This document shows, piece after piece, positions 32,149-33,430 of a stretch of DNA of 64,000 nucleotides. The notes under the pieces are model-generated. The model made no database searches, was not told where the DNA came from, and saw only the letters and a program-made list of their open reading frames with translations. Where the stretch lies: contig CANPVP010000001.1 in NCBI GenBank assembly GCA_947581825.1, forward strand, positions 163,606 through 227,605, read 5' to 3'. This DNA comes from an uncultured Clostridia bacterium (GTDB lineage Bacteria > Bacillota > Clostridia > TANB77 > CAG-508). Positions within the stretch are counted from its first letter, which is position 1. The number at the start of each line of letters is the position of its first letter. Both the position numbers and the translations under genes were made by a program.

Positions 32149-32177
32149 TTTACTAAAATTTAAATATATGCTATAAT
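32149..32177 (+). promoter_or_regulatory. Promoter of the cysteine leader and cysK
   Basis: TTTACT, 17-base spacer, TATAAT, 49 bases before the leader-peptide ATG. Confidence 0.5.
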
Positions 32178-32225
32178 ACATACAATAAATATTTTAGCAA
32201 TAGGTTACCAAAAGGAGGAGAGAAT

Positions 32226-32270
32226 ATGGATAAAAATATATTATATATTGAATGTTGTTGCTGTATATAA
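32226..32270 (+). CDS. Cysteine-rich leader peptide of the cysK attenuator
   Basis: A 14-residue peptide MDKNILYIECCCCI with four consecutive cysteine codons (TGT TGT TGC TGT) just before its stop. The ribosome site AAAGGAGGAGAG is one of the strongest in the window. The Cys codons fall at the base of a large hairpin and ahead of an intrinsic terminator, followed by cysK. This is the layout of ribosome-mediated attenuation: ribosomes stalled for lack of charged tRNA-Cys would change RNA folding and allow read-through. Confidence 0.8.
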   Translation: MDKNILYIECCCCI

Positions 32271-32379
32271 GCTTATGCCTTGTTGTAGGTATAAGCTATT
32301 ATGCCTGCAACGAAATATATAATATATTATCCATTATTATATAAGAGTTATGCAGGGAGTTAATGCATAACTCTTTTTG
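32226..32379 (+). promoter_or_regulatory. Attenuator: competing hairpins and intrinsic terminator
   Basis: AATATATTATATATT (32235-32249) can pair with the complement ending at about 32328, enclosing an inner hairpin AAGCTTATGCCT / AGGTATAAGCT. Further on AAGAGTTATGCA / TGCATAACTCTT plus T5 (32343-32379) is an intrinsic terminator. The Cys codons lie in the ascending arm of the first structure. Confidence 0.7.
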
Positions 32380-32384
32380 TATAA

Positions 32385-32456
32385 GCTTATTCTGGATATA
32401 TATTCTTAAGGTTTGCAGGCTTAACAATAATATTATTTTAAGAATATATTAAGAAT
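32385..32456 (+). promoter_or_regulatory. Second leader hairpin just before cysK
   Basis: ATATATTCTTAA / TTAAGAATATAT with an added TATTCT / AGAATA pairing directly precedes the cysK ribosome site (AGGAGAGG). The loop contains TTGCAGGC (32413-32420), exactly complementary to GCCTGCAA (32303-32310) in the attenuator, so a long-range interaction is possible. Confidence 0.5.
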
Positions 32457-32470
32457 AGGAGAGGATTTTT

Positions 32471-33430
32471 ATGAAAGTTAAAATTGGAAATACACCATTG
32501 ATTAGAATTAAATATAGATACGAAGGTAAAGAAAATGAAATATTTGCAAAATTAGAATATTATAATCCAACAGGAAGTATAAAGGACAAAGTTGCATATT
32601 ACATGATAAAAACAGCATATGAGAGTGGAGCTTTAAAAAAAGGAATGGAGATTGTTGAAGCAACAAGTGGAAATACAGGAATAGCTTTATCAGCAATGGG
32701 AGTATATTTTAAAAATCCAGTACACATTTTTATGCCAAATTGGGTGAGCAAAGAAAGACTAGATATTATGAGAATGTACAATGCAAAAGTAACTTTAATA
32801 TCAAAAGAAGAGGGAGGCTTTGCAGGAGCAATAAAAAAGGCGGAAGAATATGCAAAGAAGAATAATGCATTTTTTCCAAATCAATTTGAAAATGAAAATA
32901 ATGTATTAGCACATTATAATATAACAGGTAAAGAAATATTGGACAAAATTGGAGAAAGAATAGGAGGATTTGTTTCAGGAATTGGAACAGGTGGTACATT
33001 GATGGGAGTTGCTAAAAAGCTAAAAGAGAACAATAAAGATATAAAAATTTATGCTTTAGAACCAGATAAAATGCCATTATTATCACAAAATAGAGTAATA
33101 TCAAATCATAAAATAGAAGGAATTGGAGATGATTTTATTCCTAAGATTGTAGACAAAAAATTAATAGACAAAGTATGGGTTATAAATGATGATGATGCAG
33201 TGAATATGGCAAGAAAATTGTCATTGGATTTAGGTTTAGGAGTTGGAATATCATCAGGAGCAAATGTCATTGCGAGTGTTCTTGCTAAAGAAGAAAACTC
33301 AAAAGCAATAGTAACAGTATTTCCAGATGACAATAAGAAATATTTATCAACAGAGTTAAATAGACCAATAGAGAATAATAACAATTTTATCTCAAATAAA
33401 ATCGAACTTTTGGAATATGGATTTGAATAG
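32471..33430 (+). CDS. cysK: Cysteine synthase (O-acetylserine sulfhydrylase)
   Basis: This PLP enzyme makes cysteine from O-acetylserine and sulfide. The 319-residue protein begins with KIGNTPLIRI, has the PLP lysine in NPTGSIKDKVA (about Lys38), the substrate loop EATSGNTGIALS, the phosphate-binding GIGTGGTLMGVAKKL and KIEGIGDDFIP. The C-terminal half includes SSGANVIASV. The family average is 305-320. The leader with four Cys codons immediately upstream strongly supports a role in cysteine supply rather than cystathionine synthesis. A terminator follows at 33521. Confidence 0.92.
   Translation: MKVKIGNTPLIRIKYRYEGKENEIFAKLEYYNPTGSIKDKVAYYMIKTAYESGALKKGMEIVEATSGNTGIALSAMGVYFKNPVHIFMPNWVSKERLDIMRMYNAKVTLISKEEGGFAGAIKKAEEYAKKNNAFFPNQFENENNVLAHYNITGKEILDKIGERIGGFVSGIGTGGTLMGVAKKLKENNKDIKIYALEPDKMPLLSQNRVISNHKIEGIGDDFIPKIVDKKLIDKVWVINDDDAVNMARKLSLDLGLGVGISSGANVIASVLAKEENSKAIVTVFPDDNKKYLSTELNRPIENNNNFISNKIELLEYGFE

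Follow-up and report, generated by a model that had tools for sequence, protein, structure and literature searches.

Cysteine genes of Clostridia are usually assigned to control by T-boxes or CymR. The enteric his operon attenuator uses a codon run in a leader peptide. A ribosome stalled on this run allows segments B:C and D:E to pair, which gives antitermination. Completion of the peptide leaves C:D and E:F to pair, which gives termination. In Firmicutes, the accessible parts of two papers describe his genes with predicted His-run leader peptides, a terminator and an antiterminator, and place such His attenuators in some Eubacteriales and Erysipelotrichales, among others (PMC2965389, 2010; PMC9413887, 2022). 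For cysteine, the accessible part of a study of Rhodobacterales predicts an attenuator, uORFC-8-2, in the cysS leader, with two tandem Cys codons and an intrinsic terminator (PMC8632094, 2021). Mycobacteria and other Actinobacteria carry leaders with Cys-codon runs before cys operons, without conserved terminator hairpins (PMC1262725). The mycobacterial Cys ORFs are leaderless and are cited as translation attenuation (Canestrari 2020 via PMC13236596). Genetic evidence in another Firmicute, S. aureus, supports leader-peptide attenuation through Leu/Ile codons in the ilv-leu leader (PMC5794164, 2018). The open-access literature yielded no Clostridia Cys attenuator and no scaffold with multiple specificities.

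The locus studied here lies in a 64-kb stretch of DNA, called the window, from a gut Clostridia bacterium. The original prediction, made from these letters, was of a cysteine attenuator ahead of cysK. Its features are as follows.

32149-32177, plus strand: promoter-like site (TTTACT, 17 nt, TATAAT, extended TG), a consensus match only
32212-32218, plus strand: Shine-Dalgarno sequence AAGGAGG, the ribosome site of the leader ORF
32226-32270, plus strand: leader ORF MDKNILYIECCCCI, with ATG at 32226 and TAA at 32268-32270
32226-32270, plus strand: segment 0, the coding RNA of the leader ORF, able to pair with segment 3 together with the bases immediately 3' of it
32253-32264, plus strand: regulatory Cys codons UGU UGU UGC UGU, leader codons 10-13
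32270-32279, plus strand: segment 1, partner of segment 2
32282-32297, plus strand: segment 2, predicted partner of segment 1 (Cys-starved) or segment 3 (Cys-replete)
32299-32311, plus strand: segment 3, partner of segment 2, segment 4 or the leader (0)
32345-32356, plus strand: segment 4, antiterminator partner of segment 3 and also the 5' arm of the terminator
32364-32378, plus strand: segment 5 (3' terminator arm) with the T run; segment 5 itself spans 32364-32373
32398-32449, plus strand: second hairpin between the terminator and the cysK ribosome site (arms 32398-32409 and 32438-32449)
32471-33430, plus strand: cysteine synthase gene of the cysK/cysM family, presumed target of the attenuator

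The leader ORF stops 200 bases before the cysK/cysM-family gene, and a dipeptidase gene lies upstream of the attenuator region. The best NCBIfam subfamily for the cysK product is cysKM, with a score under the model cut-off, and we therefore name it only as a CysK/CysM-family enzyme. The predicted leader peptide with four Cys codons before cysK holds up: the fourfold TGY run, TGTTGTTGCTGT, is the only one on either strand of the 64 kb, and a shuffled window contains 0.03 on average. The AAGGAGG motif bears out the strong ribosome site. The intrinsic terminator ahead of cysK is likewise present: positions 32344-32354 pair with 32364-32374 in a stem of 11 bp, and a T run comes next. Neither over the attenuator nor anywhere else in the window does an Rfam family score at or above its gathering cut-off, and the T-box covariance model (RF00230) has no match there. 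We rejected the presence of a T-box, or of any other element catalogued in Rfam, in the cysK leader, since none was found. The same genome (G000) has no convincing cysE; its best match to CysE of the order covers residues 87-184 only, at 35% identity.

Many hairpins and short ORFs arise in AT-rich DNA. The element could thus be a chance product of an AT-rich intergenic region, in which the ordinary terminator of the dipeptidase gene happens to lie near a fortuitous Cys ORF. The strength of the fold argues against this. The region 32190-32378 folds at -61.8 kcal/mol (z = -6.65 against dinucleotide shuffles), and 32270-32378 alone gives z = -6.18 by the same comparison. The cysK leader RNA can be divided into six segments, which offer five pairings that exclude one another (0:3, 1:2, 2:3, 3:4 and 4:5). 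The alternating hairpins of the original prediction exist, as an alternation of six segments and not as a simple two-hairpin switch.

We examined these helices in 58 non-redundant members of the scaffold that the locus shares with its relatives. The median z against shuffles, which control segment composition but not phylogeny, was -3.90 for 1:2, -4.71 for 2:3, -3.48 for 3:4, -6.79 for 4:5 and -3.43 for 0:3. Pairing specificity was addressed by swapping partners between members. The own partner beat the swapped one in 86% (1:2), 79% (2:3), 65% (3:4), 92% (4:5) and 89% (0:3) of cases, and seven control pairings stayed near chance at 48-61%. The 3:4 helix gives the weakest partner-specific signal of the five. 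Segment 1 is unaligned between members with Cys-codon and His-codon runs. Conservation and partner-specific pairing hold for all five alternative helices. The strong U-tailed terminator is kept in nearly all members. On the proposed check of Cys runs and covariation in relatives, the Cys clusters are kept, and an RNAalifold consensus of seven sequences has 23 pairs, nine of them with two-sided changes.

To relate fold to ribosome position, we folded only the RNA beyond the footprint edge, taken as A site +12 (a textbook approximation), with transcription halted just past segment 4. In the window leader, 1:2 plus 3:4 is predicted for codons 9-11 in the A site; a shorter footprint extends this to codon 12. 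With the A site on codon 13 (the last Cys), codon 14 or the stop, 2:3 is predicted and the antiterminator 3:4 is absent. The predicted stall window is codons 10-12, or about Cys 1-3. Stalls further upstream (codons 6-8) favour the antiterminator less or not at all. Without a ribosome, the leader is predicted to occupy segment 3, and both 2:3 and 3:4 are absent. Among 46 resolvable members, the predicted switch point falls after the first regulatory codon and no later than the stop in 93%. Nine of 55 members, several of them Cys-type, yield no resolvable switch point in this simple folding model.

These predictions suggest the following pathway. When Cys-tRNA is low, the ribosome would stall on leader Cys codons 1-3 and leave segment 1 free. 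Hairpin 1:2 would then form, segment 3 would pair with segment 4, and RNA polymerase would continue into cysK. With plentiful Cys-tRNA, the ribosome would advance as far as the last Cys codon or the stop and cover segment 1. Hairpin 2:3 would form, segment 4 would pair with segment 5, and transcription would end at the U run. In the absence of a ribosome, the leader RNA would pair with segment 3 and the terminator would again form. We infer stalling, termination and read-through in vivo from this model. In the complete cysK leader RNA at equilibrium, no state keeps 3:4, and even a free segment 1 leaves 2:3 with the terminator as the preferred fold. Read-through must therefore rely on 3:4 forming before segment 5 exists. 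Classical attenuators also depend on co-transcriptional kinetics.

A second hairpin with an 8-base complement to the first had been proposed as a two-stage switch. Both parts exist. The hairpin is a perfect 12 bp and lies beside the cysK ribosome site without covering it, with TTAAGAATA repeated directly 3' of it. The complement joins TTGCAGGC (32413-32420) to GCCTGCAA (32303-32310). Hairpin and complement occur only in the window and a 99%-identical congener (L002/L082); no other member that we inspected has either. A conserved switch stage is not supported, as the feature is confined to the window's genus. In that genus the hairpin adjoins the cysK ribosome site, as might be expected if control were translational rather than transcriptional, the mode reported for mycobacterial Cys leaders. 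The terminator kept in nearly all scaffold members argues the other way, as does a hairpin that leaves the ribosome site uncovered and is not conserved, and we consider translational control highly unlikely.

The architecture upstream of cysK recurs in other Clostridia, where the sequence differs and the mutual complementarity is kept. The leaders MKKYILNCCCCCR (L005), MKIRNMFVNCCCCMK (L019), MSLKNIIFNCCCS (L021), MINNIIINCCRC (L064) and MNKNIISKLNKRCCCK (L069) belong to diverged relatives in which the same complementary segments arise from different sequence. The original prediction had named relatives with the same terminator and no Cys-codon run as the cases that would count against it; on this test it held, since relatives that keep the terminator before cysK, cysS or cysE keep the Cys-codon cluster. 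Many cysK relatives are without such a leader, and in 20 leaderless cysK loci we found no Rfam regulator upstream of the gene. In another lineage, cysK is preceded by a leader of different layout, MTKCCCCCFILTFRKI (L043:2292-2500). Its start region is complementary to its own 3' end, and a second short ORF with CC follows. It may be a Cys leader that arose independently and possibly acts on translation.

We built a covariance model (R2) on 40 members and searched 385 genomes of the order with it; at E <= 0.001, 88 of them contain the scaffold. In a 398-genome sample of the phylum the model matches only the window's own genome. Weak matches outside the order in a class sample are mostly plain terminators, and only L162/L246 has a codon-run leader, for His. 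Most class-wide matches were rejected, being ordinary terminators on inspection. The window's genome holds a second copy (L175/L247, G000:C3:152747-152892, minus strand), whose HHH leader MKSQIFLNQLHHHRRSL precedes an SBP_bac_3 solute-binding protein gene of an amino-acid transporter. This suggests that the gene behind it belongs to a histidine transporter. Two copies with different targets in one genome and the distribution across order and phylum weigh further against chance. With the architecture conserved in relatives, a chance origin is in practice refuted, and we give it negligible probability. A further copy, in genome G209 (L241, G209:C3), stands before a different gene without a recognisable codon-run leader and is possibly a decaying or hybrid scaffold copy.

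We then compared codon runs with target genes in 96 distinct members, grouped partly by BLAST to a classified member and by cluster representatives. All 25 Cys-type members precede Cys genes: cysS (11), cysK (9) and cysE (4 + 1, the last at a contig end and assigned via its sister locus). All five Leu-type members precede ilvB. The one Arg-type member, with leader MENINTIIRRRRH, precedes an acetyltransferase-argB fusion; a second scaffold member at such a fusion has no clear leader. The 61 His-type members precede hisS/hisZ (18), a DapF-fold gene (13), a GNAT-like gene (10), SBP_bac_3 transporters (8), hisG (4), radical SAM genes (2), hisC (1) and a beta-Ala-His dipeptidase-like gene (1), with 4 unassigned. 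Two tandem His attenuators precede hisG in L150:302-611 and L158:269-642. The ORF and the agreement between codon run and target gene, like the five helices and their conservation, are direct results of this computation. The window element belongs to one order-wide attenuator family with several amino-acid specificities and is no isolated oddity. T-boxes are found elsewhere in the window's genome, where four of five examined precede genes recognisable as aminoacyl-tRNA synthetases. The idea that the scaffold replaces T-boxes across the order was rejected, as 51 of 56 relatives have them.

Since the codon run names the amino acid, it can be used in assigning gene function. It points to histidine for both the DapF-fold, racemase-like gene and the GNAT-like gene. 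For the DapF-fold genes (L192, L196, L202, L204 and L208 among them), two histidine racemase models, CntK and Fusobacterium HisR, rank best in NCBIfam with scores under the cut-off; these genes may form a histidine racemase family. The uncharacterised GNAT-like gene, its family judged by eye, follows a His-run leader in L191, L193, L194, L198-L200, L211, L215, L224 and L229.

The leader peptide has a short hydrophobic N-terminal part and then a fixed C-terminal cluster, as a nascent-peptide arrest leader might, in which the peptide sequence and not the supply of Cys-tRNA stalls the ribosome. Across relatives, however, the N-termini are diverse (MDKNILYIE, MKKYILN, MSLKNIIFN, MIIINIIS) and tied to the 0:3 pairing, and the amino acid of the cluster changes with the target gene. 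That the residues ahead of the run vary and the codon cluster stays is in keeping with codon sensing; we regard an arrest peptide as extremely unlikely.

Across the family, segments 2-4 show strong sequence conservation, which could reflect a metabolite-binding riboswitch or a protein-binding leader, with the short ORF a bystander. A look-alike, the RF04312 trpB motif, is published as a strong riboswitch candidate (PMC11109978, 2024). It shares hairpin P1 and a terminator, an antiterminator in the right shoulder of P1, and amino-acid transporter and trpB targets. It differs in that it was published without a leader peptide, and the scaffold scores below its gathering cut-off: the best score is 42.9 bits (L150, His-type) against a cut-off of 59, and the window leader is absent among the matches. 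A fixed ligand pocket would not explain why the codon run tracks the downstream gene (Cys, His, Leu, Arg). The ORF also retains its ribosome site, and the conservation of segments 2-4 is explained by the two or three pairing partners that each segment has. We judge a riboswitch or protein-binding leader very unlikely.

Weak RF04312 matches in other Clostridia include codon-run leaders, for His in L249-L251 and L254 and Tyr-rich in L253; others are unrelated. The His leaders of L246, L249-L251 and L254 are of related layout and come from another family of the class. In L253, the Tyr-rich leader MICTRFILLKLNNAYYCNYYRQSLY stands before a gene resembling a neurotransmitter-type sodium symporter and is a possible Tyr attenuator. 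The family also suggests that leader-peptide attenuators may be present among catalogued riboswitch candidates. A broader reading, about which we are slightly more doubtful than convinced, is that one inherited scaffold serves in this order as a general amino-acid attenuator whose specificity changes by codon-run exchange, with RF04312 a distant leader-peptide relative. The scaffold tree has at least six changes of codon type; with 56 of its 93 inner branches open, it is too short to date these switches.

Very probably, cysK is controlled by ribosome-mediated transcription attenuation, with its leader sensing the supply of charged tRNA-Cys. The Cys cluster kept together with the terminator, the partner-specific helices and the position of the codons at the predicted switch support the original proposal. 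The locus has the marks of this functional class: a translatable ORF with a ribosome site and a codon run, conserved and mutually exclusive terminator and antiterminator helices and, by computation only, a fold set by where the ribosome stands on the run. It would add a cysteine-specific transcription attenuator to Clostridia. The family, about a hundred loci, is new to annotation and is a new scaffold within a known mechanism.

Among known systems, the actinobacterial polycysteine leaders resemble the cysK leader in their Cys-codon runs, but have no conserved terminator hairpins (PMC1262725). uORFC-8-2, compared by description only, belongs to Alphaproteobacteria and has two prominent stems with the Cys codons inside the first; the accessible part of that study reports no sister forms for other amino acids (PMC8632094). 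For the Firmicute His attenuators, also compared by description only, the accessible parts of the papers mention no members for Cys, Leu or Arg (PMC2965389, PMC9413887). The S. aureus ilv-leu leader is alike as leader-peptide attenuation in a Firmicute, with no RNA relation shown (PMC5794164).

The enteric his attenuator shares with the cysK leader both the codon-run leader peptide and the segment logic of stall and completion. It differs in that the cysK scaffold is found in Clostridia, serves several amino acids and has no Rfam match. Without a ribosome, the cysK leader is predicted to pair with segment 3 (an A:D type of pairing) with 1:2 nested, whereas the enteric his leader forms A:B. Overall, the six-segment alternation is closer to the A-F logic of the his operon than to a simple two-hairpin switch.
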